Below, piece after piece: positions 379-50,131 of a stretch of DNA of 50,835 nt. The stretch comes from Pontiellaceae bacterium B12219. GTDB lineage: Bacteria; Verrucomicrobiota; Kiritimatiellia; Kiritimatiellales; Pontiellaceae. How positions within the stretch are numbered: position 1 is the stretch's first letter; each line of letters opens with the position of its first letter. Both the position numbers and the translations under genes were made by a program. The DNA lies in NCBI GenBank assembly GCA_029432795.1, contig JARNMJ010000030.1, forward strand, positions 1 to 50,835, written 5' to 3'. Under the pieces are notes generated by a model, which saw nothing but the letters and a program-made list of their open reading frames with translations, did no database searches and had not been told where the DNA came from.

Positions 379-402
379 CTCCGGTTTGGGTTTGAGCACA
401 GA

Positions 403-431: not shown

Positions 432-466
432 TTATGTGTCGAGATAAAGGCTTCAAGAGGAGAGGC

Positions 467-3772: not shown

Positions 3773-3963
3773 AAATCAAAAGCGTACTTTCTATCCTGTT
3801 TGTCAGTGGAGTCGTTGCGGTTTCTGCTCAGCGTCCCGATGCGCAGTGGACGTATAAAACGGTCGCCCGCAAAGATCTGAAGCTGGATGTCTTGCTGCCT
3901 GATACGTATGAGTCTGCAGAGAAAACCTTTTTGAATGCAGAGGAGTTTGAATCTTATGAATAG
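3769..3963 (+). pseudogene. Truncated esterase-like leader ORF (signal peptide plus about 40 residues)
   Basis: This 64-residue ORF starts within the stop of the upstream gene (ATGA). It encodes a signal peptide (MKIKSVLSILFVSGVVAVSA) and then YKTVARKDLKLDVLLPDTYE. That resembles the first strand of secreted alpha/beta-hydrolase esterases, which usually read YKT-DGKELKLDVFLP and then continue with HGGGW. It stops before any catalytic motif, and its last codons contain the ribosome site of the sulfatase and overlap the sulfatase start at 3956. It is most simply an esterase gene truncated by a deletion fused to the sulfatase. It may survive because translation through it feeds the downstream gene. 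A genuine small secreted protein is the alternative. Confidence 0.5.
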
Positions 3964-9247: not shown

Positions 9248-10306
9248 ATGAAAAGTATATCAGAAATCGGCTCAAACAGAAAAACTGCAGGTGCGCTCCT
9301 CTTATGCACCATGGTTTTGCCCTGCATCAGTCTGGCTGCAACGGTTACCCCGACGGGAAACGGAAGTTGGGACCAGAATTGGAATAATGCGACAGTTGCA
9401 GGCGGCAGTGGTAATTTACTCCCGTCCGCTTCAGTCCCGGACACCGCAATTATTAATAATAATCGCATTATCAATGTGGACAGTGTTGTCGACATCGTTG
9501 CCGGCTCTGTGATTTTGAACAATCAGAATGGCTCAACAACGACGGCAACGTTGAATATTAACAGCGGCGGCAGTTTGACGACGGGAGTCATTACGGTGTC
9601 TGCGAATGATAATGAAGGAACCCTGAATGTTCAGGGCGGCGCACTGACGGTCACCGATCAGGTTGATATTAGAGCAAACGGAACCTTCAATATGATCAGC
9701 GGCTCTTTTTCGAACAGTGCAACGGGACCCCGAAGCATCACAAAAGATGGTGGCGGTGGCACGTTGAATATCCAAGGAGGCACTTTTACAGCACTGGGTG
9801 CGGCTGCCTCCGATGTGCTCCGGCTGGAGAATGACACGATCAATATCAGTGGAGGAACTGTCAGTCTGACGGGCGGGCAGGTGCTGTTGGCGGATACCAC
9901 CACACTTACCATTGCGGGGGATGCCGCGACGATCAAGCTGGATAATCTGAATATGAATACCGCCGGGCGGGCCGCAACCATTAATTTTAACTTCGATGAG
10001 ACCGGTGTCAGCACGATTAGCAACGATGGTTTTCTTAATCTGGATTTTGCAAAACTGCGGATCGATGGATCCGCCTACACGGGCGGTGCCGCGACGTTTG
10101 ATCTGTTTGATGCCGTCAATGTGGCATCTCTTTCCAGCGATGTCATCGTTACAGGCTTCGGAGTCGAAGGGGTGGACTATACGTTCACACAAAGCACTAC
10201 AGAGAATATTGTGCAGTTGAAGGTCATCCCAGAGCCGGCGACACTCGGCCTGATTGGCGCATTTGGCGGCGGGATGCTGTTTATACGGCGCAGATTTCTA
10301 ATCTAA
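9248..10306 (+). CDS. PEP-CTERM sorted beta-repeat surface protein
   Basis: The protein has 352 residues. ATG 9248 follows GGAG at a normal distance, and an N-terminal signal peptide ends near SLAA. The body is built of glycine-, serine- and asparagine-rich repeats (GGSLTTG, GTLNVQGG, GTFNMISG) typical of a secreted beta-solenoid. The C-terminus is a PEP-CTERM signal: PEPATLGL, a hydrophobic stretch, then a basic RRR end. Proteins with this signal are normally processed by an exosortase and placed in or beyond the outer envelope. The gene stands alone between the sulfatase and a bidirectional terminator. The location is well supported; the molecular role is unknown. No exosortase gene lies in this window. 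Confidence 0.85.
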   Translation: MKSISEIGSNRKTAGALLLCTMVLPCISLAATVTPTGNGSWDQNWNNATVAGGSGNLLPSASVPDTAIINNNRIINVDSVVDIVAGSVILNNQNGSTTTATLNINSGGSLTTGVITVSANDNEGTLNVQGGALTVTDQVDIRANGTFNMISGSFSNSATGPRSITKDGGGGTLNIQGGTFTALGAAASDVLRLENDTINISGGTVSLTGGQVLLADTTTLTIAGDAATIKLDNLNMNTAGRAATINFNFDETGVSTISNDGFLNLDFAKLRIDGSAYTGGAATFDLFDAVNVASLSSDVIVTGFGVEGVDYTFTQSTTENIVQLKVIPEPATLGLIGAFGGGMLFIRRRFLI

Positions 10307-26058: not shown

Positions 26059-26642
26059 GCGCTTTTTCCTTTGGCAATTTTAGAGCGGGCAACGGCGGCG
26101 GTCTGCTGGTCGCCCATGAAAATGCGGATCACACGAATGTTTTCTTTTGCTTCCGGAATTTTCACTTTTTCAAAAAGATTTACGCGCTGGGTGGTGGTAC
26201 GCAGCTCATCTCCAAGCAGGCGATGCTGCTCTTCGAGAATCTGCCGTTCCACACGAAGCTGGGTGAGCTGCTTCAGTGTGCTGATCCCCGCATCCGTCCA
26301 GGCATCGGTTTCAAAGAGGTTTACAGGAACGTCTTTGAACACAAGGCTGTCAAGAATCGGAATATTCACACCGGCAATGTTGCCTTGCGAGGTCTTGAGC
26401 GTTTCAAGTTCTGCGTAGGGAGCGAGATCAATCGGCTCGGAATACAGCTGAATCCATGAACTCAGCTTGGCCCGGGCTTCCTGCTCTTCGTCGCGTTTTT
26501 CCAGAATTTCCTGGTCGAGGCGCCGCATCTCCATCTGGAGCTGCTGCTTTTTCAACATCAGTGTCGGCAGGTAGCGACTGAACCGCTTCAGCGAATCGCG
26601 CTGAGACTTAAGCTCGTTTTTAGTTAGTTTAATCTTTGCCAT
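26055..26642 (-). CDS. atpD: V-type ATPase subunit D (central stalk)
   Basis: The 195-residue coiled-coil protein begins MAKIKLTKNELKSQRDSLKR, the conserved start of V/A-type subunit D, which forms the rotating shaft inside the A3B3 head. Two long helices are predicted at the ends (RYLPTLMLKKQQLQMEMRRL; LRTTTQRVNLFEKVKIPEA). It overlaps atpI by four bases and is separated from atpB by a 79-base spacer with an inverted-repeat element. Confidence 0.93.
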   Translation of the reverse strand: MAKIKLTKNELKSQRDSLKRFSRYLPTLMLKKQQLQMEMRRLDQEILEKRDEEQEARAKLSSWIQLYSEPIDLAPYAELETLKTSQGNIAGVNIPILDSLVFKDVPVNLFETDAWTDAGISTLKQLTQLRVERQILEEQHRLLGDELRTTTQRVNLFEKVKIPEAKENIRVIRIFMGDQQTAAVARSKIAKGKSA

Positions 26643-26650
26643 GTTTTTCT

Positions 26651-26712
26651 ATCCACAGATTACTCAGATTCCCCTGATTAAAAATCTGTGTTAATCAGCG
26701 AAATCTGTGGAT
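26651..26712. repeat. Intergenic inverted-repeat element between atpB and atpD
   Basis: ATCCACAGATT (26651-26661) has its inverse AATCTGTGGAT at 26702-26712, with TGATTAA and TTAATCA nested within. The words AATCTGTG and AATCAG recur. Similar short AT-rich word repeats occur between genes in several bacterial phyla. It is transcribed within the ATPase operon and may adjust the mRNA ratio of the subunits. Confidence 0.6.
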
Positions 26713-26721
26713 TCATGTTAA

Positions 26722-28020
26722 TTAACCCTTCGGCCAGAATTTGTCCGTCAGAGTAGATTTAATTCCGGTTTCCGCCGGCTCAAAGCAGTCGGCCAGAATT
26801 TTCCATCCCGCATCCAGCGCTTCTTCGAGCGGAAGGTTCACCGTGATGTCCATCATCGTAGACTCAAAGCGTGCTCCATATTTCAGCAGCTTGCTGTCCC
26901 AATCCGACATCCGGAAGCCCATGGACTGTTTTTCCAGCGTTTCTTTATAGGATGCGTAAAGCTGAATCATGGTGTCCATGACGGCGCGGTGGTCATCGCG
27001 GGTACGGTCGTTCACCTGCTGTTTCAGACGGGACAGGGAACCGAACGGTTCAATGCGTCTGTTCTTCAGATAGAACTGACCTTCCGTGATGTATCCGGTG
27101 TTGTCCGGAACCGGGTGGGTTACGTCATCGCCCGGCATGGTTGTAACAGCAAGAATGGTGATCGATCCGCTGCCTTCAAAGTCAACCGCTTTTTCGTAAC
27201 GGGCGGCCAGCTGTGAATAAAGGTCGCCCGGATAACCGCGGTTCGAAGGGATCTGTTCCATGGTAATCGCCACTTCCTTCATGGAATCGGCAAAGTTGGT
27301 CATATCGGTCAGCAGTACGAGTACACGTTTGTCTTCCTGCGCATACTGTTCAGCAACGGCCAAGGATACGTCGGGAACGAGCAGACATTCAACCGTCGGG
27401 TCGGATGCCGTGTGAACGAACATTACGGTACGGGAAAGGGCGCCGCTTTCGTCCAGCTTGTCGCGGAAGAAGAGATAGTCGTCGTATTTCAGGCCCATGC
27501 CGCCGAGAATAATCACATCCACTTCGGCCTGCAGCGCAATCTGCGCGAGCAGTTCGTTGTAAGGCTCACCGGCCACGGAGAAAATCGGAAGCTTCTGCGA
27601 TTCAACGAGGGTGTTGAACACGTCAATCATCGGAATGCCGGTACGAACCATATTGCGCGGAATAATACGCTTGGCCGGATTGACCGACGGTCCGCCGATA
27701 TCAATCATGTTTTCCTTGATTTCCGGACCTTTGTCGCGCGGTTCACCGGATCCGGTGAAAACGCGGCCGAGGAGGTTTTCAGAAAACGGAATCTGCATGG
27801 TCCGTCCAAGGAATTTAACCTTGGCATCGGTTCCGATGCCGCGTCCGCCGGCAAATACCTGCAGGAACACGTTTTCATTCTCGAGTCGAATGACCTGAGC
27901 CAGCGATACCCCCTGTTCGGAAGTCACCTGCGCGAGTTCCCCGGCGATAACATCGCCCGCTTTAACAACAATCACGTTACCGGTGATCTGTTCAATCCGG
28001 TGATAAACTTTATTCTGCAT
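26722..28020 (-). CDS. atpB: V-type ATPase subunit B
   Basis: The 432-residue subunit forms the non-catalytic nucleotide sites of the A3B3 head. Motifs include [37 protein letters not shown], and [16 protein letters not shown]. It lacks a true GXXXXGKT P-loop, as expected of B. Its ATG overlaps the atpA stop by 11 bases, so the subunits are coupled. No palindrome copy is seen in this gene. Confidence 0.97.
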
Positions 28021-29752
28021 AGTCAGAAACCTCCGCGAGCGCTTTAGTCATTTGCTCTTCAATTTTCTTAAATTCATCTGATTCGAATTCGCTGCCGTTC
28101 CAGTCACGGCAGGTCTGCGTGAGCTGCTGGAAGAAGGAACGGGCGGCATCTTTATCTTTAAACGTCATTTTTGTGTTCATGAGCTTAAGCAACTTACCGA
28201 AGACATATTCCTGACGCTCAATCGAGTTCGAAGAATCTGTTTCATCGAAAGCATTCTGCTGCAGATAGGTTGCATCAATGTATTCCGACTTCAGGTAGAG
28301 AACGAAGTCGTCGATAGAAGTCCCTTCCTCACCGACCACTTTCATCATTTGGCCGACTTCAGCCCCGTTGCGCAGCACCTTGCGGGCTTCTGCCACATTG
28401 GCTTCGTTTACAATACTGGGATATTTGCTCCAGGAATCCAACGGGTCGATCGCCGGGTAGCGGCGGGCATCGGAGCGGGCACGGGAAAGACCGTGGAAGG
28501 CTCCAACCACTTTCAGGGTGGCCTGCGTTACCGGTTCTTCAAAGTTACCGCCGGCCGGGGAAACGGTTCCGCCGATGGTTACTGTTCCCTGTTCGCCGTT
28601 GTTCAACCGCACCGCACCGCCGCGTTCGTAGAACGAAGCAATTACGGATTCGAGGTAGGCCGGGAAAGCTTCTTCACCGGGAATTTCTTCCAGACGACCG
28701 GACATTTCGCGCAGGGCCTGCGCCCAGCGGGATGTGGAGTCGGCCAGCAGGAGTACATCGAGTCCCATCTGACGGTAATATTCCGCCAGCGTCACACCGG
28801 TGTAAACGGAGGCCTCACGAGCCGCAACCGGCATGGAGGAGGTGTTACAAATAATCAACGTACGTTCCATCAGGGATTTCCCGGTACGCGGGTCCGTCAG
28901 TTCCGGGAACTCACGCAGGGTTTCCACCACCTCACCGGCACGTTCGCCGCAGGCCGCGATGATCACGATGTCCACTTCGGCGTTACGCGACATGATCTGC
29001 TGCAGTACGGTCTTACCCGCACCGAACGGACCCGGAACACAGAAGGTTCCGCCTTTCGCCACCGGGAAGAAGGTATCAATGGTACGAAGTTTCGTGGCCA
29101 TTGATTCTGTCGGACGCAGCCGTTCGGCATAGGCTTTAATCGGCATTTTCACCGGCCATTTCTGCATGATCTGGCATTCACGGGTGTTGCCTTTGTCGTC
29201 TTTCAGAACCGCAACAACTTCAACAACGGTGTATTCACCGGCAGGCTTAACACTTTCAACGGTCCATTTTCCGCGGAGGTTGAACGGGACCATAACACGA
29301 TGATCAAACATGCCTTCCGGGATGGTTCCGATGGTGTCGCCGGCAATCACAATGTCACCGGCCTTCAGTTTCGGGGTGAAGGCCCATTTTACATCGCGGG
29401 GAAGGGGATCGAGATATTTTCCGCGCTGCAGGAAGAATCCGCATTCTTCGGCCAAACGGGGAAGAGGGTTTTGCAGACCGTCAAAAACCTGGGTCAGCAA
29501 CCCCGGTCCAAGTTCCACGGAAAGCAGTTCGCCGGTGAATTCAACCGGATCGCCGACTTTAAGGCCGACGGTATCCTCAAATACCTGAAGTTCGGCGCTG
29601 GTTCCGCGGACACGAATGACTTCCGCTTTCAATTTAAGGTCGCCGGCGCCAACGCAGGCGTAGGCCACTTCGTTCTGGATCACGGGTTTGTTGAACTCAA
29701 CCTTCAGGAGGTTGCCGTTCACCCCGATAATTTTACCGATGTTTTCACTCAT
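28010..29752 (-). CDS. atpA: V-type ATPase catalytic subunit A
   Basis: The 580-residue subunit carries the catalytic sites that hydrolyse or make ATP. The P-loop GPFGAGKT lies near residue 238, followed by ACGERAGEV and [20 protein letters not shown], and the V-type-specific insertion domain precedes the P-loop. It starts 43 bases after the DUF2764 gene and overlaps atpB. No palindrome copy is seen here. Confidence 0.97.
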
Positions 29753-29783
29753 AGTCTCTTTCCTCTATCCCAATAAAAGCAAT

Positions 29784-29812
29784 AGACCGCGGGGTCTACG
29801 CGTCCGCGGTCT
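29784..29812 (-). other. Hairpin across the end of the DUF2764 gene
   Basis: AGACCGCGG (29784-29792) and CCGCGGTCT (29804-29812) form a nine-base stem. It spans the last codons and stop of the DUF2764 gene and the start of the gap before atpA. It could protect or attenuate mRNA between the two genes. A short T-rich stretch is on the opposite side only. Confidence 0.45.
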
Positions 29813-30344
29813 CTTCTTTTTCTGTGTTTGCCGTGATGACGGCCTCAATTTTCTCTTTGCCTACGTGAACGTCCATACGATTCCAACGCTCAACAATTTT
29901 AAGCTGGATGCCGTAAGCCAGTACCTTTTCAAATCCGAAGGGATTCTGACCATCCACCAGCTGTTCGGCCAGATTCCACCGACCCCGGTCCAGATGCTGT
30001 TCGAGCTCAACCGGATCGGTTTGAGCAAAGGCGTCTTTGACGAAGGTTTCAACTTCACCGATGAAACCATCGTGCGGCTGGAGGTATTCCTTGAAGTCAA
30101 CCCCGAGTTTCTGGCCGCGCTGCCGTGCGATTGCATTACGAATCTGACATTCCACATCGTAAATAAGTTTGCAGAGCGGGCAGGGCGCAATATCCGGCTC
30201 CTGGAGCAGAACTTTGCGAAGAATTTCTGATTCGCGCTCGGTTACCCACTGTGAAGCATTCTCCACATATTCCTCCGTCGTGAACGGGGGTTCATCCCCG
30301 ATCTGAAGGCTGGGCAAGCTGGCTACGAGTGAATAGTAGGCCAT
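29796..30344 (-). CDS. DUF2764 protein of the V-ATPase operon
   Basis: The 182-residue soluble protein begins MAYYSLVASLPSLQIGDEPP, the typical start of DUF2764. It sits between subunits E and A, exactly where Chlamydia and Bacteroidetes V-ATPase operons carry this family. No subunit C, F or G/H gene is present, so this protein may replace the C (d-type) socket; that is inference. Its C-terminus is acidic. The hairpin at 29784-29812 overlaps its end. Confidence 0.85.
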   Translation of the reverse strand: MAYYSLVASLPSLQIGDEPPFTTEEYVENASQWVTERESEILRKVLLQEPDIAPCPLCKLIYDVECQIRNAIARQRGQKLGVDFKEYLQPHDGFIGEVETFVKDAFAQTDPVELEQHLDRGRWNLAEQLVDGQNPFGFEKVLAYGIQLKIVERWNRMDVHVGKEKIEAVITANTEKEETADA

Positions 30345-37785: not shown

Positions 37786-38241
37786 ATGTTGGAAGAGAAG
37801 AAGAATAAAAAACGGGGGAGCCAGGCGGGGTTCACATTGCTGGAAGTCCTGATTGCAATTGCTCTGCTCGCAGCCATTGCCGGACTGCTTGTCTCCAACC
37901 TCGACCGTATTCTTGGCGGCGGGCGCGAGGAAGTGGCACGGCTGTTCGTGGAAGAAACCCTTGAAACTCCGCTAACCGCCTATCGCGTGAATATGGGCCG
38001 TTATCCCTCCACGGAAGATGGTCTCGAAGCGCTGCTGAAAAAACCGTCGGATGAAGCCGTAAACTGGCGCGGTCCATACGTTAAGAAACTCAACCCCGAT
38101 CCCTGGGGAACACCTTATCAGTATCGGTATCCCGGAGAGCACAACGAATCCGGCTTCGACCTCTGGTCTTTAGGACCTGATGGGGTTGAAAGCGAAGACG
38201 ATATCGGAAACTGGACGGTAAGCACTTCAGAAAACGATTAA
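37786..38241 (+). CDS. gspG: Type II secretion major pseudopilin GspG
   Basis: The 151-residue protein has a 15-residue basic leader ending SQAG, then FTLLEVLIAIALLAAIAGLL, the pilin hydrophobic helix with Glu5. YPSTEDGLEALL, GPYVKKLNPDPWGTPY and DLWSLGPDG are the GspG signature with its Ca-binding loop. A GGGAGG site precedes ATG 37786. It opens the secretion operon; the 246 bases upstream contain no certain promoter. Confidence 0.95.
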   Translation: MLEEKKNKKRGSQAGFTLLEVLIAIALLAAIAGLLVSNLDRILGGGREEVARLFVEETLETPLTAYRVNMGRYPSTEDGLEALLKKPSDEAVNWRGPYVKKLNPDPWGTPYQYRYPGEHNESGFDLWSLGPDGVESEDDIGNWTVSTSEND

Positions 38242-38256
38242 CCCGAGTGAACGGCG

Positions 38257-38775
38257 ATGAGGCGTTTGCAACAAGCTGGTTTTACCGTAGTGGAGGTGTT
38301 TCTTGTAATCACTCTGCTGGCCATCGTTGCAACCCTGATGGTGGTTCCCGTGCAGCACATGGCGGAACAGGTTCAGGTGCGCCCCCTCGAGGAGACGCTG
38401 TTGAATGTTGTGCGGAAGGCGCATATGGAAGCTCGGCAAAGAAATATTCCGGTTGTTCTGCACTATGCCGGCGAAAGCAATGTGCTCGAACTGGCCACGG
38501 CCTCCGGAATCATGATCGAGGAAATTGATCTGCAGGCGGCAGCGGGGGAGGAGGATGCTGAAATCCTGCGCTTCTTCCGAATGCTTCCCGAAGATCCGAA
38601 AAATGAATCTCTGGCGTATGAAACAGAGGAAGAGAGCATTGATTCCATCGTTTTTCATCCCGCCGGAGCCTCCGCGCCGTTTGCGATTGAACTATTGCAA
38701 AAAGATATCCGCTTGGTCATGGACCCATTTTCAAGCGAACCGTTGATCCGCGAAGTCGAGGGCCACGAATCATGA
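38257..38775 (+). CDS. gspH: Type II secretion minor pseudopilin, GspH-like
   Basis: The 172-residue protein has a short leader (MRRLQQAG), then FTVVEVFLVITLLAIVATLM. The rest is a beta-rich domain with little residue identity to well-studied GspH, but the position after gspG and the helix length fit. It follows gspG by 15 bases and its stop overlaps gspI (ATGA). Confidence 0.8.
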   Translation: MRRLQQAGFTVVEVFLVITLLAIVATLMVVPVQHMAEQVQVRPLEETLLNVVRKAHMEARQRNIPVVLHYAGESNVLELATASGIMIEEIDLQAAAGEEDAEILRFFRMLPEDPKNESLAYETEEESIDSIVFHPAGASAPFAIELLQKDIRLVMDPFSSEPLIREVEGHES

Positions 38776-39281
38776 GACGTGAAGGCTTCACTTTGCCGGA
38801 AACCATTGTGGCAATGAGTCTGTTTGCCATGGCGGCCACCGTTCTTTGCCAGGCTGCACTGAATGCCAATCTGGCCCTCATGCGTCTGGAGCATAAGGAA
38901 GATGCCCATTTAAAAATGGACTGGGTGCGCGAGGAAATTCTCAGCATCACAGACCGTGCGGTCATCGAAGAAGGCGGAGAACTTGTGTTTCCTCTGCACG
39001 TTCGTAAGAAACCGCTCGACGATGAAGAGCCTGAACCGGAGGACGGGATCAGCAGTATTAAGGCCTCCTGGGAAGCAGAGATTTTTCCAACCCATGTACT
39101 CGATGTGCATCGGCTCGATATCACGGTGACTATTGAACTGGGCGAAGAATTGGCGGAGCCGCGAACAGCCTCCTACTATGTTTATCGCCCGGATTGGTAT
39201 GAAGAAACTGACGGCCGCGGCAGTCTTATGTCTGAAAAAGAAGCGGATTGGGAGCGGCAGCAGTTGCTGCGCGGAATCTAA
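38772..39281 (+). CDS. gspI: Type II secretion minor pseudopilin, GspI-like
   Basis: The 169-residue protein has the shortest leader, MRREG, then FTLPETIVAMSLFAMAATVL. The conserved Glu5 is present. An acidic middle (DDEEPEPEDG) is unusual. Its stop TAA overlaps the gspJ ATG. The I assignment rests on order and on the short leader. Confidence 0.75.
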   Translation: MRREGFTLPETIVAMSLFAMAATVLCQAALNANLALMRLEHKEDAHLKMDWVREEILSITDRAVIEEGGELVFPLHVRKKPLDDEEPEPEDGISSIKASWEAEIFPTHVLDVHRLDITVTIELGEELAEPRTASYYVYRPDWYEETDGRGSLMSEKEADWERQQLLRGI

Positions 39282-39934
39282 TGAAGAAGCGAACACACAC
39301 TTCCAATCATTGGAAAGCCGGGTTGACCTTCCTCGAACTCCTGCTGGCTGTTGCAATTTCGGGACTCATTCTGTCAGCATCGGCGCAACTGATGTTTTCC
39401 TTCGGCAATTTCTGGAAGCAGTCCGAACTGGAACCGCGTTTTGAGCATCATGTGGACGGCGTGGTTTCGTTTCTGCAATACTGCCTCGATGAATCGGAAG
39501 TGCTCTCTGCCGACCCCGTCAGTCCCTTCGGATGGAAAAAAGTGCCGGGAGTCAGCCAGAAAGGAATTCAGTTTCGCCTCACGGCACCTCCTCCGTTTTT
39601 TGTGACGGATATACGCCCGGTTCCCCAGATTGACGGATGGCTCTATTTCGACGAAGACAAAGGACTGACCATTCTCTGGCGGATTCCTGCAAAATTTACC
39701 GATGGGAAAACGGAGCTTATGCAAACTCCGGTTTCCCCCTGGGTTGAGGATTTAGAGCTGGGCTATTTTGATGCGGAAAATAATACGTGGGAGTATGAAT
39801 CTTCCGCCGACGATCAATACAAAGCTGCGCGCACCGCTCCGGGGGCCTTGCGCATTCTGTTTAATCAGGACGGACGAAAAAAAATGCGTGATCTTCGTCT
39901 GCTCCGTCACGACCGCCATGTGCTTATTTACTAA
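39281..39934 (+). CDS. gspJ: Type II secretion minor pseudopilin, GspJ-like
   Basis: The start is ATG 39281, which overlaps the gspI stop; the frame is open upstream but without a leader. The 217-residue product has a leader ending HWKAG and then LTFLELLLAVAISGLILSAS. The leader contains SNHWK, encoded by the exact palindrome at 39301-39315, so the repeat sits in the part removed on maturation. The C-terminal part is beta-rich, as in GspJ. It overlaps gspK. Confidence 0.8.
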   Translation: MKKRTHTSNHWKAGLTFLELLLAVAISGLILSASAQLMFSFGNFWKQSELEPRFEHHVDGVVSFLQYCLDESEVLSADPVSPFGWKKVPGVSQKGIQFRLTAPPPFFVTDIRPVPQIDGWLYFDEDKGLTILWRIPAKFTDGKTELMQTPVSPWVEDLELGYFDAENNTWEYESSADDQYKAARTAPGALRILFNQDGRKKMRDLRLLRHDRHVLIY

Positions 39935-41000
39935 TCCATCCAAAAAGCGCCGGGAAGGCGCCGTTCTGCTGATTGTGCTCGGAGTCATTCTGCTCGCAAG
40001 CTGGATGCTGGTGCAGATCCTCGCACGGGTCGGTGAAGAGGTGTCGGTGCGCGGTGAAGACGAACAGAACGATGCCCTGAAAACCTCCGCGTTCCAGGCA
40101 TTGGAAATCACGATGGGGGTCCTGGCGGAAATCAAGTTGCTCGATGACGGCCTCTACAGTCCCGTGCAGGGATGGGGCAATCCCTTGGGCTACGCCGGAT
40201 TTCCATCGCATGCGGCATCGAACGAACTGGAGTTTGCGGCACAGGAGAGCGGCGACATCGAGGAAATCGTTCCGTTTGCATTTCCACCCGGAATTCAGGT
40301 TACCGTGGAGCTTCGTGATGAGTCGGGGCGGTTTCCGCTTAATACGACTTCCGGCGAACGGTGGAAACTGCTGTTTGAAGAAATGGAAATTCAGTCTTCC
40401 GATGCCGCAACCCTTACAGATTGCCTTCTGGACTGGATCGATGCTGATGATGAAACCCGGTTGAACGGTGCGGAAAAAGGTACCTATCAGCGACGCGATC
40501 CCGCCTATTTACCGGCCAATGCTCCGATTGTGAATACGATGGATCTTCAATTGATTGAAGGATTCGACCGTCTGTTTTTTGATGAAGATGGTCTTCCGAA
40601 TGATCTCTATCGGACCTTTCTGGACTGCATCACGGTGCTCAATTTTGAGGGCGTGAATCTGAATGCGGCCCATCCGCTTGTGCTTGCGGTGCTGGGCGAA
40701 GAGCGCGATTTTGAACCGGAACGGATTGCTGACTACATCGCCGGTACCGATCTGGAACCCGGCACGCTGGATGACAATGTCCTGCGACCCGGGCTTGATG
40801 ATCCCGACCTGCCGACGAACAACGAAGGCGAGGCGCTCGATTTGAGCACAACCAGCCGTTTTATAACGGTATACATCACGGCGATGTCCGCCGGTACGGT
40901 GTTTAATCTTTCCGCGCGTCTCGATACCGAGACGCCGTCCGAACATCATATCTATCCAATGACCATTCTGGATTTGCAAACGAAAGGCTCAACCTTGTGA
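39918..41000 (+). CDS. gspK: Type II secretion minor pseudopilin GspK
   Basis: I use ATG 39918 (MCLFTNPSKKRREG), which overlaps the gspJ end by 17 bases, in place of the upstream ATG at 39768 whose extra 50 residues have no leader character. The leader is followed by AVLLIVLGVILLASWMLVQI. The 360-residue product has RDESGRFPLN, the GspK marker, and LLDWIDADD. GspK normally lacks Glu5, as here. Palindrome 40092-40106 encodes FQALE. It ends GTGA with gspL. Confidence 0.9.
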   Translation: MCLFTNPSKKRREGAVLLIVLGVILLASWMLVQILARVGEEVSVRGEDEQNDALKTSAFQALEITMGVLAEIKLLDDGLYSPVQGWGNPLGYAGFPSHAASNELEFAAQESGDIEEIVPFAFPPGIQVTVELRDESGRFPLNTTSGERWKLLFEEMEIQSSDAATLTDCLLDWIDADDETRLNGAEKGTYQRRDPAYLPANAPIVNTMDLQLIEGFDRLFFDEDGLPNDLYRTFLDCITVLNFEGVNLNAAHPLVLAVLGEERDFEPERIADYIAGTDLEPGTLDDNVLRPGLDDPDLPTNNEGEALDLSTTSRFITVYITAMSAGTVFNLSARLDTETPSEHHIYPMTILDLQTKGSTL

Positions 41001-42205
41001 CCGGGGAATTAGTTAAAACAGAATATAAAGCGAGCGGTTTAGTGACCGCCGATCCGGTGCGTTTAGTCGCTTCGGCACGGTTTATTGTGGAGACGCTGGA
41101 GCTGCCGCCCGGCATTTCGCCACGCGATACACAGGGTTTTCTTGAAGGTGAAGTGGAAGAACGCTCGCTCTTTCCGCTGGAATCGACCTCCTGGGGCTAT
41201 ATGGAAAACCGCCGAAAGGGGGCCAATGCTTCCATCCTGCTGTATTCGGCCTTCCGGGAACAGGTGAACGGAGAAAGTGATCCGCATTATGCCCAGCGCC
41301 ATGCGGTGCTGCCCGGTTTTGCCGCGTTGGTCGGTCGGGCGTGGCGGAAAACAACCTGGATTTTTCTGCAGGAAACTGAATGCCTTACGCTTCTTCGTTT
41401 TCCTGCGCGTTCTGAAATTCCGGATCGCGTGCGCAGTCTGTATGGAACGAATCTGGAAGAAGATCCTGCAGCCGCCTGGATCTTGCGCGACACGTTGCTG
41501 AAGGGCGTGGAGGTGCAGGAGGATGAGTGCATCGAAGAAGGACTCGTGCGGTGCAGTAAACCTTCCAATGATCGGAAAGGCGGAGTGATTTTCCCGCTCG
41601 AACGGTGTCGCGCTCCCGGCGAAGAATGGAAGCGCTTCGGTACGGGAAAAATAAGTTCAGAGGCTGCACTTCGGGCGGCAGATGTTCGCGATCCGCATTT
41701 TCTGAACAAGCTTAGGAATCGGCGGAGGGCAGCCCGGCAACTGAATACGTTCCTCCGTCTGGCCGCCGTATTATTGATCGGACTGTCCTTTTTTCAATTT
41801 CGCTACATTCAGTTAAAGAAGAAAACGGCGCGGCTTTCGGATCAGGTTTCCGCACAGCGTCCAGTTGTTTCGGCGCTGCAGCAACAGGAAGCGCTGGCAA
41901 AATCAGCCGGCCGGTTTGCTGACCCGCCGCTGGAAATTTTTGCGTGGCTGACAGCGGTGAATGATATACGCCCGGAAAATATATCCTTTTTGAGCACCTA
42001 TGCCGACCGCGATGGAAACCTCGGTTTTTCCGGAGAAGCTCCGAGTGTGGCGGACGTGAATAAATTCAAAGAAGGACTGAATCAGACGAACCGCTTCAGC
42101 CAGGTTGAGGTGAAAGAAATCAACAGTGCAAAACGCGGCGTTAAATTCAGCATACAGGTCAAGATGAATACAGACGTCCAGCCGCTGGAAGGAGGCGATG
42201 CATAA
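40997..42205 (+). CDS. gspL: Type II secretion inner-membrane platform protein, GspL/PilN-like
   Basis: The start is GTG 40997, overlapping the gspK stop. The 402-residue protein has a cytoplasmic half without a clear ATP site, one membrane segment around residues 250-270 (RLAAVLLIGLSFFQF), and a periplasmic domain. Such a layout fits GspL, or a PilM-PilN fusion. Its position before a GspM-like gene supports that. TTCCAATGATCGGAA lies at 41563-41577. Confidence 0.75.
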   Translation: MTGELVKTEYKASGLVTADPVRLVASARFIVETLELPPGISPRDTQGFLEGEVEERSLFPLESTSWGYMENRRKGANASILLYSAFREQVNGESDPHYAQRHAVLPGFAALVGRAWRKTTWIFLQETECLTLLRFPARSEIPDRVRSLYGTNLEEDPAAAWILRDTLLKGVEVQEDECIEEGLVRCSKPSNDRKGGVIFPLERCRAPGEEWKRFGTGKISSEAALRAADVRDPHFLNKLRNRRRAARQLNTFLRLAAVLLIGLSFFQFRYIQLKKKTARLSDQVSAQRPVVSALQQQEALAKSAGRFADPPLEIFAWLTAVNDIRPENISFLSTYADRDGNLGFSGEAPSVADVNKFKEGLNQTNRFSQVEVKEINSAKRGVKFSIQVKMNTDVQPLEGGDA

Positions 42206-42756
42206 TGCTTAATCTTCTTTCCCGAATTTCCTCTCGCGAGCGCATTATGCTGGCGGCTCTGGTTGTGGTGGGTTCCATGATCTGGCTGAACAGTTTATGG
42301 CGGAACTGGGAGTCGGTCTCCGTTCGGTACCGTAAAGTGAAACTTGAACTCGAGCAGCAAACCGTCTGGCTGGAAAATTCCGATCGATTTGCAGAAGAAC
42401 TGGATAATTCACTGGCTCAGCTGGACCCGAATAAAACCTATAATGATGCGGAGTTAATTGCCCTGATCGACAGTCTGGCAAGGAAACATAAAGTGTCTCA
42501 TGATCTCGGCGCACCGGCCACTGTGGAGGGGGAACTGTTTTTTCAGCATACGCTGAAAGTCAGCGTTAAGAATGTGCCCTTGCCAAGGCTGATCGCTTTC
42601 GAGCGGGATCTTTCAACGCGCTATCCCTATGCCTCGGTAGAAGATTTTTCAATTTCGGCCAACAAGGCCGACCCGCGGCTGCTGAATGCGCGTTTAACCA
42701 TTTGTGCCTATCAACTGACCGCTGAAGAGGATTACTCGAACGCGCTGTTCGATTAG
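42205..42756 (+). CDS. gspM: Type II secretion platform protein, GspM/PilO-like
   Basis: The 183-residue protein has a short cytoplasmic start, one helix (IMLAALVVVGSMIWLNSLW) and a coiled coil (KVKLELEQQTVWLENSDRF) leading to a small periplasmic domain. That matches GspM and PilO. Its ATG overlaps the gspL stop. Identity to known members is low, so the letter is given by position. Confidence 0.75.
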   Translation: MLNLLSRISSRERIMLAALVVVGSMIWLNSLWRNWESVSVRYRKVKLELEQQTVWLENSDRFAEELDNSLAQLDPNKTYNDAELIALIDSLARKHKVSHDLGAPATVEGELFFQHTLKVSVKNVPLPRLIAFERDLSTRYPYASVEDFSISANKADPRLLNARLTICAYQLTAEEDYSNALFD

Positions 42757-42775: not shown

Positions 42776-45700
42776 ATGAAAAAACAATCGTTCATTATTT
42801 TCACGGCTATGGCCCTCGCGGCGATACCTCTGTATGCACAGACCAATACGGTGTCGGCACCGCGGATCGTGGCCGCTCCCATCGATTCGCTTGATCCGAC
42901 GGACGAGGTCGGTCCCATCGTCTTGCGGAAGATGTCGACCGATCAGGTGTTTGAACTGCTTCAAACGTACAGTGGCCGGGTGATTATTCCGGCGGCGGGT
43001 CTGCCGAAAACAACCTTCACATTTAACAGTTCGGAAAAGATGCGGCGCGATGAGGCGATACTTGCAATTGAAACGCTGCTTAATTTGAACGGTATTCTGC
43101 TGGTACCTCAGAAAAATGGATTCCTGGAAGCAATTCCGCATAATCAGGCATTGCGGCACGGACCGATTCTGCACGATGGGGCGGTTCCGGAGAGCAGTGC
43201 AGAACAACAGGTCTATGGCCGTATTTTTGAACTGACCCATCTGGATTCAAAAAGCATATATCAGCAGATTCGCAATCTGCTCTCTCCCGGAGGGCTCGCT
43301 ACTATTCTGAATCTGGAATGGCGGAATTCGCTGCTCATTTTTGATACCGATCAAAATCTGGATGCGTTGGCAACTGTCATTAAAATGTTGGATCAACCAG
43401 CCGGACATCGGGCGGAAGTGTATGTGATTCCGATTAAAAACAGCCGGGTCTACAGTGTCTATTATGCGTTGCTTCATGCGCAGCGCTATCGGGCGAATGC
43501 CGCGCTTTTTCGGGCCCGTTTTCACATCGACAGCGCAGCCAACCATCTGGTCGTTGTTTCGTCGCCGGAAAGCAAACCCTATATCGAAGAGCTGGTTGAA
43601 AAACTGGACCGGGAGATTGCACCGCTGACCACCAGCCAGGTGTACACCATCGAAAAGGGCAACCTCCGTACGATCTACAGCATTCTCACCGGAATGATTC
43701 GTCATCAGCAATCGCAATTCGGGAAACGTGGTTTCCAAAGTCTGGAAACATATCGGATTTCGCAGAAATTAAATGAAGCGGACACGCTCACTGAAACGGA
43801 GCCGGTGGATACGCCTCCGGTTGAAACTGTGGTTTCGGAAATTGCGGCCGATGCCGCAAGCACTGCCGAGCTGCAGTTCAGTCCCTATATGGGCGTATGG
43901 CTGGATTATCAGAATAATGCGTTGGTGGCTTACGGCACTCCGGCAGATTTACGGCGCATGGGAGAGTTGATTAAAAAACTGGACCGGGAAACGGCCCCGT
44001 ATACAAGCAGTGAAATTATTAAACTCAAACATGCCTATGCCGCCGGACTGGGGAGCCTGTTGAATCATATGGTGAGCGTGCAGCGTAACCTTTTTTCGAG
44101 ACAGGGATTAAGCAGTGGGGAAGCCCGGGATGGGCAGGGGAGTGATGTTGCAGACGATGCGTTTGAATTCAGTCCATACATGTATATCTGGACCGAACGG
44201 GCGAATAACGCGATCGTTGTGTATGGAACCCGATCGGATATTGACCGGATTAAGTCCATCATTGCGCAGATGGATGTGCAGCAGGCGCCCGTCACACGCA
44301 GTAAAACAATTACGATTCAAAATACGCAGGCGATAACGGTTGCCAATATGATTGGTCGAATTATTTCGATGCAGCGTTCGATGTTCAAACGCGAAGGTGT
44401 ATTTTCCGGCAAGCCTCGTGAAGATGGAACAACTCCGGGCGAAGGCGGGGCAATGGAGGTCGGCTTTGAATTCACTCCGTATGCAATGGTAACGGCTGAC
44501 CGCACCGGAAACTCCCTGTTCGTTTACGGAACGGAACAGGATATCCAGCGTGTGGAAGAATTGCTGGTTGATCTCGACCGGGAAACCGCACCGATTACAA
44601 AAAGCAAAGTATATTATTTAAAGCATGCCGAGGCGTATAGCTTGAGCCGAATCATATCGCAGGTGATTACCTCGCAACGCCGTATTTTTGACCGACGCGG
44701 ACTGCGCTCGGGTGAAGAAACCGCTTCCAGTGACGCGGAAATGAATATGGGATTTGAGTTCAGTGAATTCGCCACCATTGTTGCCGACCGAAGAAGCAAC
44801 AGTCTTTTGTTCTATGGCACGGATTCAGATATTATTCGCATTGATGCCATGATTGCCGAAACGGATATTGCCGTTGAGCCCATCACGGGCAGTCGGGTCT
44901 TTCCGCTCAAGCATGCAGAAGCGAACAGTCTCTCGCGTGTTCTGCAGCTTATCGTCACCAGTCAGCGCCGGGCCATGAAATCGGTGGAATCCGCCAGCGA
45001 GAAAGTGAGAAATTCACAGGAAGGCAGTGATGCTCCGAATGCCGAAGGTGATCTGGCGTTGCAATTCAGCCCCTTCCTTTCCATCGTTCCGGATGCGCGG
45101 AACAACGCGCTGATTGTATATGGAACCCATGGAGATCTGAAGCACGTGGCTTCATTGGTTGAGCAGACGGATGTGGAGGTTGCTCCGCTGACCCGCAGTC
45201 AGGTTTTCTTCCTGGAAAATGCAAAGGCGAATACGCTCTCTTCAATTTTAACCCGCATGATTCGCAGTCAGCAAACGGCTATGCGTTTAGTGCAGTCGCG
45301 TTTTCGTGCGGTGCAGTATCCGGGAGAAGAAAATGACAATGCCGGGGCAATGCTCTACGACCCGAATCAGTCGATGCAGTTCAGTCCCTATGTTTCGGTG
45401 GTTCCCAATGATCGGAACAACTCGTTATTGATTTATGGTACCGAAGAGGATATCCGCCAGCTGGATGCAATCATCAGTCAAAATGACATTGCGGTTGCTC
45501 CGCGTACACAAAGTCGCATTTTCTATATCCGACATGCCGATGCAAACGATGTGGTGCGGACGATTAATCCACTCATCACATCGCAGCAGAGAGTGCGGGA
45601 ACGGGAAGCGACGCTCCGACGGTTCTACCGGAAAAGCGGGGGCGACCTGGATGACGAATTATTGAATGATGAGCTGGAACCGCAGGGAGGGGAAGCACTT

Positions 45701-46807
45701 GCTGAGATGCCCGATGTGGGTATGGAATTTGATGAAGATCTTCAGTTCAGTCCCTATGTCACACTCTCGGCCGACGACCGGAGTAATTCTATTCTGGTTT
45801 ACGGAACGCCCTTTGATCTGGAGCAGGTCGAAAACCTGATCGACCGGATTGACCGGGTTCTTCCCCAGGTTCAGATTGAAGTGGTCATTGCCGAAGTCAT
45901 GCTGGAGAATGGACAGGTTTCAGGGCTGGATTCGTTCGGCGTCAGTTATGACAATCCCTTCCCGTTTCAGGTTGCCGGAGCGGCTGCGGGTGGGGTTGCG
46001 AGCCGCGGTGGTGTGCTTGGGCAAACGGGAGAGATCGACGCGGGCGAAGGCGCAGCCGGTGATATTGGGCTCGGCTTAAATCCGTTCAGCCTTCAAATGG
46101 TTTTCCGCACGGCCAAGGAAGACGGCAAGGTCCGCATTCTTTCCGCCCCGACAATCACCACAAGTCATAACCGCCCGGCCAGTATCAATGTCGGCGAAGC
46201 GCGGCCCATCATCACCAGTTCCACCTCCACGTTGAATAATAACAACACCTCCCGTTCTACGGTGGAATACCGCGATATCGGCATCGAACTCAAAGTCGTA
46301 CCGTTGGTGAGCGACCAAGGCTATATCCAGATGGATATCGAACAGACGGTTGAAACCGTTATCGGTTCGCAAACCATTGATAACAATGAACAGCCGATCA
46401 TCGGAACACGCCGTGCGAATTCATTCGTCAGTGTTCGGGATCAACAGATCATTGTCATGGGCGGCCTGCAATCGGAAACAACTATCGTAACGGATGGGAA
46501 GGTCTGGATACTGGGCGATATCCCGTTAATCGGTCGTCTCTTCCGCCCCAAAAAGAACGTTTCAACGGTTCGGGAACTGATCATTTTTATTCGTCCGCAG
46601 TTGATCACGGACAGCAGTACTCAGGAGATGATGAAGCAGTTGACCGAAGAGCCGGGACTGGCAGCCGAAGATGCGCTGATTTATCTCGAAAACAATCAGT
46701 TTGCCGGACAGCTTGCGCGAATCGAAGAAGAGCAGGAATCCGTGCGGGGAAATACAAATGAGGTAACAGAGGTTATCGTGACCGCGGAGGAATCGGATGA
46801 AAAATAA
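42776..46807 (+). CDS. gspD: Giant type II secretion secretin with about nine N-domain repeats
   Basis: The 1343-residue outer-membrane channel has a signal peptide ending PLYAQ. A probable N0 domain (about residues 46-125) is followed by modules starting near residues 148, 215, 289, 414, 511, 612, 708, 810 and 915, the later ones about 100 residues each. Each later module has xYxLKHAxA, then SxILxxMIxSQRR, a gap, FSPYxxIxxDxRNNxLLVYGT, and ends APxTxS. These resemble the N1/N3 ring domains. The pore region is from about 1033, with LSAPTITTSHNRPA, VPLVSDQGYIQMDIEQ and VMGGLQ. Normal GspD is about 650-700 residues with N0-N3. AAGGA precedes the start. Palindrome 43733-43747 lies in the third module. 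Confidence 0.95.
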   Translation: MKKQSFIIFTAMALAAIPLYAQTNTVSAPRIVAAPIDSLDPTDEVGPIVLRKMSTDQVFELLQTYSGRVIIPAAGLPKTTFTFNSSEKMRRDEAILAIETLLNLNGILLVPQKNGFLEAIPHNQALRHGPILHDGAVPESSAEQQVYGRIFELTHLDSKSIYQQIRNLLSPGGLATILNLEWRNSLLIFDTDQNLDALATVIKMLDQPAGHRAEVYVIPIKNSRVYSVYYALLHAQRYRANAALFRARFHIDSAANHLVVVSSPESKPYIEELVEKLDREIAPLTTSQVYTIEKGNLRTIYSILTGMIRHQQSQFGKRGFQSLETYRISQKLNEADTLTETEPVDTPPVETVVSEIAADAASTAELQFSPYMGVWLDYQNNALVAYGTPADLRRMGELIKKLDRETAPYTSSEIIKLKHAYAAGLGSLLNHMVSVQRNLFSRQGLSSGEARDGQGSDVADDAFEFSPYMYIWTERANNAIVVYGTRSDIDRIKSIIAQMDVQQAPVTRSKTITIQNTQAITVANMIGRIISMQRSMFKREGVFSGKPREDGTTPGEGGAMEVGFEFTPYAMVTADRTGNSLFVYGTEQDIQRVEELLVDLDRETAPITKSKVYYLKHAEAYSLSRIISQVITSQRRIFDRRGLRSGEETASSDAEMNMGFEFSEFATIVADRRSNSLLFYGTDSDIIRIDAMIAETDIAVEPITGSRVFPLKHAEANSLSRVLQLIVTSQRRAMKSVESASEKVRNSQEGSDAPNAEGDLALQFSPFLSIVPDARNNALIVYGTHGDLKHVASLVEQTDVEVAPLTRSQVFFLENAKANTLSSILTRMIRSQQTAMRLVQSRFRAVQYPGEENDNAGAMLYDPNQSMQFSPYVSVVPNDRNNSLLIYGTEEDIRQLDAIISQNDIAVAPRTQSRIFYIRHADANDVVRTINPLITSQQRVREREATLRRFYRKSGGDLDDELLNDELEPQGGEALAEMPDVGMEFDEDLQFSPYVTLSADDRSNSILVYGTPFDLEQVENLIDRIDRVLPQVQIEVVIAEVMLENGQVSGLDSFGVSYDNPFPFQVAGAAAGGVASRGGVLGQTGEIDAGEGAAGDIGLGLNPFSLQMVFRTAKEDGKVRILSAPTITTSHNRPASINVGEARPIITSSTSTLNNNNTSRSTVEYRDIGIELKVVPLVSDQGYIQMDIEQTVETVIGSQTIDNNEQPIIGTRRANSFVSVRDQQIIVMGGLQSETTIVTDGKVWILGDIPLIGRLFRPKKNVSTVRELIIFIRPQLITDSSTQEMMKQLTEEPGLAAEDALIYLENNQFAGQLARIEEEQESVRGNTNEVTEVIVTAEESDEK

Positions 46808-47156: not shown

Positions 47157-48860
47157 ATGCGTATTGATTCCATTGCCAGCAATTCGGGACTGGGTAAAAT
47201 TATCAGCCAGCTCGACCCCGAAGCGGCACGAACTGTTGAAACCGCGGAACGCGAGGATAAACTTAATTGTTTATCCGTGGCGACCGGCATTGATGCCCGG
47301 GAACTCCTGGCTCTGCTTGCTCATGGCACGGGTTATCCGCTTTTAACGGCATTTGATCCGGAGGTTGAAGAATCCGCAGGTTTTCCTGAACGACTCATTC
47401 ACAGCTGCGGTGCATTGCCCATTCATCCCCCGGAGGAGTGCGAAGCAGGAAGCTTGTGCCTCGCGACACTGTGGCCGCCGAGTGAACGGATTAAACAATG
47501 GGTCTATGCCGTGTGTGGACAGGAGGTTCAGTGGTTTCTGGTGGAGCCGCGAAAACTGATTGCTGTCATAACGAGCAACTTCGGCGTCGGAGCGGCCAGT
47601 CTGGATGAATCCGATTCCGAAGGAATCGGTGGCGCGGCTAAAGAAGAAGAGGAAGATGAAAATGCAGCCATTATCCGGTTTGTGAATGATGTCATTCAGC
47701 AGGCGATGCGCGATCGGGCAACGGATATTCACTTCGAACCGCGGAAAGAGCATCTGGATATTCGCTATCGTATTGATGGCCGCCTCGTCCCGGTCCGGGT
47801 TCCGGCAAACCTGGTCAATTTTCAAAGTGCGATCATCTCCCGTATTAAAATTATGTCGCGGATGAATATTTCTGAAAAACGCCGCCCGCAGGATGGGCGC
47901 ATCACCTATGGAAAAGGAAGGCAGGAAGTGGATGTGCGCGTTTCAACACTTCCAACCATGTATGGTGAAAGTGTTAGTATGCGTTTGCTGAATGAACAGA
48001 GTCAGCCGACTTCTATTCAGGAGCTGGGCTTTCTGCCGGACGATGCCGAGCGCATTAACCGGGTGCTCGATCTGCCGCATGGCATAATGCTGATCACCGG
48101 GCCGACGGGTTCAGGAAAAAGTACTACGCTGGCTTCGTTTATGCGGCAGATTGGAACGCCGGAACGCCGGATCATTACGGTTGAAGATCCCATTGAATAT
48201 GAAATTCCCCAGATCAACCAAACCCAGGTGAATTCAGAGATCGGTCTGACCTTTGCGAGTGCGTTGCGCAGTGTGCTTCGTCAGGATCCGGATGTAATCA
48301 TGGTGGGGGAAATCCGCGACCGGGAAACGGCGGATATTGCGGTGCGGGCATCGCTGACCGGACACCTGGTTCTGAGCACCCTTCACACAAATGATGCACC
48401 GGGAGCGATTGTGCGTCTGGTGGATATGGGCATTGAACCCTTTCTGATTGCATCATCGGTTAAAATGGTTATCGCTCAGCGTTTGATTCGCCGTCTGTGT
48501 CAGAACTGTGCCGTGCCCGACGATACCCCGATCGAAGTCATTCGTTCCTGTTTAATGACGCTGGGGGTGGATCCCGCCCGGGCTGATGCCGCAGATGGTT
48601 TGCGCCTGCCCGCCGGCTGCGATTCCTGTTCCGGATTAGGCTTCAGGGGCCGCGTCGGTATGTTCGAATTATTGCAGGTGGATGAAGCCATTCATTCGCT
48701 GATTGTGCAGCGGGCTTCAGCACATGACATCCGCCGTCAGGCATTGTCAAACGGCATGCGCAGTTTGCAGGCCTGTGGATGGGAGCATGCCGCCCATGGC
48801 CAATCCGCCTTGTCGGAAGTTATGCGCTATGCCGAGATGGCGGAAACCAGCGGAGAATAG
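47157..48860 (+). CDS. gspE: Type II secretion ATPase GspE
   Basis: The 567-residue hexameric ATPase powers pseudopilus assembly at the cytoplasmic face. Residues up to about 150 form the N-terminal domain that contacts the platform. Then follow DIHFEPRKEHLDIRYRIDG, GPTGSGKSTT (about 314-321, Walker A), EDPIEYEIP (Asp box), and VGEIRDRETADIAVRASLTG (Walker B). A zinc site is made by CQNC and CDSC near residues 448-491. It lies six bases after the small gene and three before gspF. Confidence 0.95.
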   Translation: MRIDSIASNSGLGKIISQLDPEAARTVETAEREDKLNCLSVATGIDARELLALLAHGTGYPLLTAFDPEVEESAGFPERLIHSCGALPIHPPEECEAGSLCLATLWPPSERIKQWVYAVCGQEVQWFLVEPRKLIAVITSNFGVGAASLDESDSEGIGGAAKEEEEDENAAIIRFVNDVIQQAMRDRATDIHFEPRKEHLDIRYRIDGRLVPVRVPANLVNFQSAIISRIKIMSRMNISEKRRPQDGRITYGKGRQEVDVRVSTLPTMYGESVSMRLLNEQSQPTSIQELGFLPDDAERINRVLDLPHGIMLITGPTGSGKSTTLASFMRQIGTPERRIITVEDPIEYEIPQINQTQVNSEIGLTFASALRSVLRQDPDVIMVGEIRDRETADIAVRASLTGHLVLSTLHTNDAPGAIVRLVDMGIEPFLIASSVKMVIAQRLIRRLCQNCAVPDDTPIEVIRSCLMTLGVDPARADAADGLRLPAGCDSCSGLGFRGRVGMFELLQVDEAIHSLIVQRASAHDIRRQALSNGMRSLQACGWEHAAHGQSALSEVMRYAEMAETSGE

Positions 48861-48862
48861 CC

Positions 48863-50131
48863 ATGCCGAGATTCTTCTACCGGGCTGTTAATACAAATGG
48901 ACACGCAACTTCGGGGGCCGTGGAAGCGGCCGATGCCGCGGCTGTAAGAAAAAAACTCCGGAATGACGGGCTGACTCCCGTTGATATTCGCCGGGCAAAT
49001 CCGGCGGACAGCGCCCATACATCCCATCGCGAAAAACATACCTCCGTTTCTTCCGCCGAAATGGAAAAGTTTACGAAAGCGCAAATCAGCGCCGGAGAAG
49101 CCAATAAAATCTCATTGGAGTTTTTCACCCGGGTTCATCAGCTCGTGGATAACGGTATGCCGTTGGGAGATGCGGTGAAAGCATTGGGCCAGCGCCTAAC
49201 CGTTCCTCGTCAAAAAGCATTATGTGCCGGACTTTGGCAGGAGTTGAGCAAGGGCGCGAATATGGGGGATGCTCTGCGGCGCTTTCCGAAAATTTTTGAC
49301 CCGACCACCATAGCTATGATTGAAGCCGGTGAGGCAACCGGAAACCTTGCTCCGATTCTGGCCAATCTGATTGAAATGCTGAATACCCGCCGGGAGATGC
49401 GAAAGGAAATACTTTCGGGACTGTCGTATCCGGCATTCATTTTGGCTGTCGTTTTTTTTGTGATGATCTTTGTGCTGTTCTACTTGATGCCCAATGTTCA
49501 GACCATGATGGATTCAATGGGCGGGGAGCTCACCTTACCGACTCGCATCGTGATGGGATTCGCGCACTTCAGTCTGACCGGCGGACCGTTCATTCTCGCC
49601 GCGCTGGGAGGAATTGCGCTGGTGATCCGGCAATGGCGTAAATCTGAAAGCGGGCGAATGAGTATTGACCGTTGGATGCTTCAGGTCCCGATTGTGAAAG
49701 ATATTGCGCAGAATGCTGAACTCTGCCGCATGTGTAATTTAACCGCTGTTCTGCTTGATAGCGGAGTGGATACCACCGATGCTTTGCGTCTGATTGAACG
49801 CGCCATGCAAAACCGATACCTGAGAAGCTTATTTTCTTCCAGCCGAACGCTGATCAGCGATGGTGCCTCCTTTGCAAATGCCTTGCGTCATAATAAAGTC
49901 ATGCCTGATATGGATCTGGATATTCTGAGCATCAGTGAAGATGCCGGAGATTTGGTGGCCGGGTTTCGCAGTGTCTATAAATCGCGCAATGAAGAATTGC
50001 GGGACCAGATGAAAAAACTGACCGTCTGGATTTCCACCTGTGCACTCTTATTTGTTTTTGCGCTGGTCTTCCTGCTGGTCTTCGGGATTGTGAGCAGCAT
50101 CCTCCAGCTCAGCAGCAGCGTACTGGGATAA
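48863..50131 (+). CDS. gspF: Type II secretion inner-membrane protein GspF
   Basis: The start is ATG 48863 (MPRFFYRAVN); the frame is open upstream only because it overlaps gspE. The 422-residue protein has two repeats of the T2SSF domain with the membrane segments AFILAVVFFVMIFVLFYLMP and LLFVFALVFLLVFGIVSS. An 80-residue N-terminal part (MPRFFYRAVN... with KKLRNDGL) is common in GspF. It is the final gene of the operon; the next 70 bases show only a weak hairpin. Confidence 0.95.
   Translation: MPRFFYRAVNTNGHATSGAVEAADAAAVRKKLRNDGLTPVDIRRANPADSAHTSHREKHTSVSSAEMEKFTKAQISAGEANKISLEFFTRVHQLVDNGMPLGDAVKALGQRLTVPRQKALCAGLWQELSKGANMGDALRRFPKIFDPTTIAMIEAGEATGNLAPILANLIEMLNTRREMRKEILSGLSYPAFILAVVFFVMIFVLFYLMPNVQTMMDSMGGELTLPTRIVMGFAHFSLTGGPFILAALGGIALVIRQWRKSESGRMSIDRWMLQVPIVKDIAQNAELCRMCNLTAVLLDSGVDTTDALRLIERAMQNRYLRSLFSSSRTLISDGASFANALRHNKVMPDMDLDILSISEDAGDLVAGFRSVYKSRNEELRDQMKKLTVWISTCALLFVFALVFLLVFGIVSSILQLSSSVLG

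Follow-up and report, generated by a model that had tools for sequence, protein, structure and literature searches.

A predicted type II secretin with seven copies of the N3 ring module in Pontiellaceae bacterium B12219

The contig JARNMJ010000030.1 of Pontiellaceae bacterium B12219 (assembly GCA_029432795.1) was analysed over positions 1-50,835 of its forward strand; this whole stretch is referred to as the window, and coordinates refer to it unless another locus is named. The organism is a marine degrader of polysaccharides. The window encodes a long protein which its sequence identifies as a true GspD, the outer-membrane secretin of a complete type II secretion system (T2SS). Its layout is N0-N1-N2-(N3)x7-secretin, ten ring-type modules as compared to four in standard GspD. 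We propose, with a probability of about 0.68, that this N3-duplicated GspD stacks as a tube of about ten rings and forms the extended vestibule of a specialised second T2SS.

The open reading frame (ORF) encodes 1343 amino acids (aa) and contains no internal stops. With 530 bits the protein passes the curated cut-off of the GspD equivalog model TIGR02517 (351.35), and Pfam detects a single C-terminal Secretin domain (PF00263, 141 bits, residues 1114-1277) preceded by nine Secretin_N (PF03958) stretches. Characterised GspDs usually carry three Secretin_N modules (N1-N3), not nine; the curated criterion of the family is the model score. The N-terminal N0, judged by predicted structure alone, superimposes on the N0 of enterotoxigenic Escherichia coli GspD (4jtm) with a root mean square deviation (rmsd) of 2.3 A over 81 columns and a TMt of 0.80. 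Moreover, the gene lies together with those of GspE, GspF and GspG to GspM. An identity as PilQ or another type IV pilus secretin was rejected. The model of PilQ, the type IV pilus secretin, gives 194 bits (TIGR02515, cut-off 284) and that of the Amuc_1098-type Verrucomicrobial type IV pilus secretin 71.8 bits (NF042912, cut-off 750), and the scores for MshL, HofQ and YscC likewise stay under their cut-offs.

A preliminary description of this DNA had read the protein as an N0 followed by about nine further modules, seven of them close repeats of 95-125 residues starting at about residue 289, each with a variable linker in its middle. The N0 fold and the nine Secretin_N stretches bear out this count, and the repeats, designated R1-R7, were located at residues 285-1031 with lengths of 96-125 aa and pairwise identities of 23-39%. 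A self-comparison, which the same description had named as a check, yielded 25 strong off-diagonals, as compared to 0 in each of 20 shuffles. The motif YGT recurs at residues 386, 483, 584, 680, 782, 887 and 1009.

Several lines of evidence indicate that these repeats are copies of N3 specifically. In the best PDB alignment, that with PulD (6hcg), the alignment stops at PulD residue 292 and restarts at 307, corresponding to residues 313 and 995 of the query. Hence all of the approximately 680 extra residues are placed at one point, the unresolved N3 loop of PulD (288-303); the description of this structure includes constriction sites of N3 within the channel (PMC6882859). A hidden Markov model (HMM) built from the repeats only scores 56-73 bits at the single N3 of standard Opitutus-type GspDs and at most 8 bits at their N1 or N2. 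A module tree places R7 and its counterparts with the standard Opitutus N3 (support 0.978), and the remaining repeats cluster mostly by position rather than by species. Alignment, HMM and tree together rule out generic N1 or N2 repeats and argue that the extra modules arose by tandem duplication of N3, with R7 as the likely ancestral copy. What the preliminary description had termed further ring-type modules is thereby retained as to type and narrowed to N3.

The predicted fold is consistent with this assignment. In an AlphaFold model of the N-terminal modules (residues 28-1060), each repeat folds as strand-helix-(disordered stretch)-strand-strand-helix, and long stretches with a predicted local distance difference test score (pLDDT) below 50 sit in the central linkers, in line with the variable linkers noted before. 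A model of the module triplet R4-R6, built on a deeper alignment, reaches a core pLDDT of about 80-88. It aligns over 186-200 residues and in sequence order with N1-N2-N3 of solved GspDs (E. coli GspD 5wq7: Z 11.1, 186 residues, rmsd 5.1 A). The model of R4 fits N3 of enteropathogenic E. coli GspD (5w68) with an rmsd of 1.6 A over 65 residues, and a single repeat fits N3 of 9k8v with 1.3 A. The repeats are thus predicted to adopt the secretin ring-domain fold; a structure prediction without ring-type domains, which the preliminary description had set as grounds for giving up its reading, was not obtained.

Three points weigh against a stacked tube with lumen-facing loops. The arrangement of the domains is of low confidence, with a predicted template modelling score (pTM) of 0.26 for the N-module model and 0.38 for the triplet model, and no ring geometry is claimed from the models because of these values. 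Ring stacking as such is beyond the reach of monomer models. The placement of the loops, finally, is taken from standard GspD. The disordered linkers and the uncertain inter-domain placement would also suit a protein in which the repeats are ring-type but unstacked, strung together flexibly so as to bind peptidoglycan, the small protein X encoded next to gspD, or cargo. This we hold to be very unlikely: the repeats are copies of N3, which forms a well-ordered ring in the solved GspD structures, the linkers are internal to the domains rather than between them, neighbouring modules are joined as closely as N1, N2 and N3 are, and the triplet keeps the order of N1-N2-N3 in its alignment.

Homologous long GspDs with seven or six N3 copies were found in seven genomes of two lineages, and one more genome has a form with three. 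In the order of the window's organism the long form is present in 3 of 43 genomes, all of one genus (about 28 genomes), and in the order of Coraliomargarita in 4 of 273 sampled genomes. The survey of repeat number that the preliminary description had suggested gave, by a custom HMM, a series of 1, 3, 6 and 7 copies across related systems: seven in the window's genome (G000), G001 and G005, six in G075 (Coraliomargarita), G258, G390 and G422, three in G329 and one in Opitutus-type GspDs. Relative to the seven-copy forms, the six-copy forms are without exactly one whole module. Orthologous modules cluster by position across the lineages. Between the two closest copies of the gene the ratio of nonsynonymous to synonymous substitution rates (dN/dS) is 0.07 overall and, where computable, 0.05-0.16 per repeat or 0.04-0.16 when all modules are counted (R5 is saturated at synonymous sites, which precludes a value). 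The modules with a computable ratio are under purifying selection. The sequences show that the N3 expansion is of ancient origin, and its patchy occurrence suggests transfer or repeated loss.

These data also bear on whether genes were joined or a repeat was expanded by error in assembly or annotation, an outcome that would have undone the preliminary description. Short-read assemblies can indeed collapse or expand repeats. However, copies of merely 23-39% identity are too different to confuse an assembler, and two congeners, one with a genome in 6 contigs, have the same seven-copy architecture at identities of 87% and 72%. Since orthologous modules cluster by position and the computable ones are under purifying selection, we reject an assembly error, whose probability is negligible.

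The central loops of the N3 copies share one property. Among the 45 loops of the seven long proteins 44 carry a negative net charge, one is neutral and none is basic, despite lengths varying from about 20 to 67 aa and diverged sequences. Their charge density is -12 to -18 per 100 aa, whereas the structured cores of these modules range from about -1 to +2, and the first 33 residues of each repeat in the window are net basic. By analogy with standard GspD, the loops of all seven N3 copies most likely face the lumen.

From these features a plausible mechanism can be drawn. About 15 protomers would assemble into a stacked tube with about ten rings in the periplasm, several more than in standard GspD; a rough estimate of its length is about 35 nm, as compared to 20 nm for PulD (PMC6882859), and a longer periplasmic channel may fairly be inferred. 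The disordered loop which forms part of the N3 constriction ring in ordinary GspD is retained in the centre of every N3 copy; hence, if the loops point inward, the lumen would possess seven successive layers of flexible, negatively charged loops. Substrates would enter this long vestibule and be pushed through the gate by the pseudopilus, the extra rings serving to lengthen and line the vestibule of a specialised second T2SS beside the ordinary one. A further step, put forward only tentatively, is that the seven acidic-loop rings of this ten-ring system act as a multi-layer electrostatic brush or a series of gates which selects and guides folded cargo.

The window's genome harbours six secretin genes. 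Contig C44 encodes a second complete T2SS, the GspD of which (738 aa) is of the ordinary four-ring type with three Secretin_N, and C273 carries a solitary standard GspD-type gene (794 aa, three Secretin_N). The remaining three, on contigs C204, C205 and C253 (loci L110, L109 and L111), encode secretins of other kinds; behind the one on C205 come genes for an ATPase, a platform protein and pilin-like proteins. A standard-length paralogue is present in every long-form genome found, and therefore a wide envelope alone fails to explain the long form. The preliminary description had suggested that the channel might cross a wide or layered periplasm. On this view an unusually wide periplasm would call for a long channel if the inner-membrane platform is to be reached; the same has been proposed for Thermus PilQ, whose six rings span most of a wide periplasm according to the authors (PMC5745081). 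This suggestion finds little support and we regard it as quite unlikely. The complete C44 system of the same genome manages with a GspD of three Secretin_N, the few genomes of the genus with the long form should share their envelope plan with the others, and transmission electron microscopy of a congener was reported to show an ordinary Gram-negative wall (PMC10880615). In its favour, the coexisting long and standard forms sit in different operon types and might be linked to the inner membrane in different ways.

Alternatively, the vestibule might hold very large cargo such as giant sulfatases, the other explanation offered before, or multi-domain cargo. The carriers come from polysaccharide-degrading groups (for Pontiella, PMC10880615), genes for sulfatase, L-fucose isomerase, rhamnosidase-like and CBM6 proteins occur in the vicinity of four long operons, and extra rings give more internal length. 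Stacked rings, however, lengthen a channel and do not widen its bore, and no conserved cargo gene stands beside the operons examined. A nearby sulfatase means little, since sulfatases are extremely abundant in the genus (PMC10880615). The sulfatase in question, a 1736-aa protein (3935-9145), is encoded about 29 kb upstream of the long gspD, with recA, a V-type ATPase and other housekeeping genes in between. We reject it as cargo for want of linkage to the T2SS operon, and a role of the vestibule in holding large cargo is unlikely in general.

Regarding this part of the window, the sulfatase domain is confined to residues 34-499 of the 1736-aa protein, and its other approximately 1200 residues have no Pfam match. 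The adjoining 1128-aa ORF (386-3772) is equally without Pfam matches, and an ORF at 9248-10306 shows a weak PEP-CTERM-like C-terminus (E 0.005, under its cut-off). A V/A-type ATPase operon (A, B and I subunits, DUF2764) occupies 24259-30344 on the reverse strand. In G005 the surroundings of the long T2SS operon include genes for an L-fucose isomerase and an AraC-like regulator (L105, 2448-5263); similar genes exist in the window's genome (L109, 431-3258), but near a different secretin locus.

The long gspD belongs to an operon of the order G-H-I-J-K-L-M-D-X-E-F, which is kept in the long-form loci examined and in the three-copy locus. The features are compiled in Table 1. In the operons examined, D is directly followed by protein X, with relatives at L112 (12722-13084), L106 (14170-14529) and L044 (11843-12205). 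As read from its sequence, X begins in a signal-peptide-like manner and shows no other hydrophobic stretch. Pfam and PDB comparisons gave no match for X, to GspC-HR or PilP or otherwise. Longer X-like frames are widespread in the phylum, and one, in G040, adjoins a standard-length GspD. X as a GspC shrunk by the longer secretin is weakened as an idea by these relatives, which have a signal-peptide-like start and no obvious anchor, at least one of them beside a standard-length GspD. X is possibly a phylum-specific substitute for GspC.

Table 1. Modules of the long GspD and genes of its operon (window coordinates)
Feature	Position	Strand	Basis or remark
gspG, major pseudopilin	37786..38241	+	TIGR01710, 110 bits (cut-off 89)
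gspH-like, minor pseudopilin	38257..38775	+	position, prepilin N-terminus; order kept in other long-form operons
gspI-like, minor pseudopilin	38772..39281	+	position, prepilin N-terminus
gspJ-like, minor pseudopilin	39248..39934	+	prepilin motif; conserved order
gspK	39768..41000	+	NF037980, 87 bits (under cut-off 130); conserved order; true start probably inside ORF
gspL-like	40997..42205	+	PilN domain PF05137; weak TIGR01709
gspM-like	42205..42756	+	weak PF04612 (T2SSM), E 6e-5
Long GspD secretin, whole gene	42776..46807	+	intact 1343-aa ORF; TIGR02517, PF00263, nine PF03958
Putative signal peptide region (MKKQSF...LYAQ)	42776..42841	+	sequence reading
N0, residues ~45-125	42908..43150	+	predicted fold; resembles 4jtm
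N1, residues 145-212	43208..43411	+	Secretin_N; aligns with N1 of PulD/XcpQ
N2, residues 213-284	43412..43627	+	Secretin_N; aligns with N2 of PulD/XcpQ
R1, N3 copy 1, residues 285-409	43628..44002	+	first half resembles first half of PulD N3, to PulD residue 292
R2, N3 copy 2, residues 410-506	44003..44293	+	repeat comparison, custom HMM
R3, N3 copy 3, residues 507-607	44294..44596	+	without counterpart in six-copy long forms (alignment, tree)
R4, N3 copy 4, residues 608-703	44597..44884	+	model fits N3 of 5w68
R5, N3 copy 5, residues 704-805	44885..45190	+	repeat comparison, custom HMM, triplet model
R6, N3 copy 6, residues 806-910	45191..45505	+	repeat comparison, custom HMM, triplet model
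R7, N3 copy 7, residues 911-1031, adjoins pore	45506..45868	+	tree; second half resembles PulD N3 from residue 307
Secretin (outer-membrane pore) domain, residues ~1032-1290	45869..46645	+	PF00263 at 1114-1277
Protein X, about 117-118 aa	46797..47150	+	signal-peptide-like start, NSPF motif, small domain; overlaps gspD stop
gspE, ATPase	47157..48860	+	TIGR02533, 519 bits (under cut-off 630); top among GspE/PilB models
gspF, inner-membrane platform protein	48863..50131	+	named by position and conserved E-F pair of the other T2SS operons; start picked at MPRFFYRAVN within its ORF

The copy-number series represents a natural set of one secretin domain, which permits function to be compared with channel length. 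One and the same cell has genes for both the long and the standard GspD, so simple periplasm width cannot account fully for the long form, and a single strain allows a comparison of both machines. Furthermore, the conserved acidity of otherwise divergent loops provides a testable idea on the role of the poorly understood N3 constriction.

With the GspDs of solved structure (PulD 6hcg, XcpQ 5wln, E. coli GspD 5wq7/5zdh) the window protein has in common N0-N1-N2-N3, the secretin barrel, the T2SS operon and a disordered central N3 loop. It differs by seven N3 instead of one, ten modules instead of four and strongly acidic loops, and its locus contains the small, probably secreted protein X rather than a recognisable membrane-anchored GspC. 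Opitutus-type GspDs of the Verrucomicrobiota (L046-L056), the N3 of which is closest to R7, are likewise followed by gspE and gspF, but have one N3 and, in the loci examined, no protein X between D and E. No paper describing an expanded GspD in Verrucomicrobia or Kiritimatiellota was found in the open-licence literature, which does not prove absence. The preliminary description had known of no such expansion among characterised systems. As with the wide periplasm and the sulfatase cargo, this part of its interpretation was not supported, unlike the GspD with ring-type modules and linkers: Thermus PilQ already has six stacked rings (N0-N5) and a channel of about 35 nm in situ (PMC5745081, PMC4463427). 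PilQ shares with the window protein extra b-a-b-b-a ring domains and a long periplasmic channel, predicted in our case, but is a 13-meric secretin of type IV pili and DNA uptake with six rings, whereas the window protein is a T2SS GspD. The N domains of another long secretin, Deinococcus DR_0774 (8co1), align with R4-R6 (Z 10.5, 184 residues, rmsd 11.2 A); this protein of 740 aa is shorter than that of the window and named a probable type IV piliation system protein. Expansion of ring number is thus already known in pilus secretins, a ten-module GspD formed by copying of N3 was not met with in the open-licence literature, and its ten predicted rings exceed those of any secretin described in the literature found.

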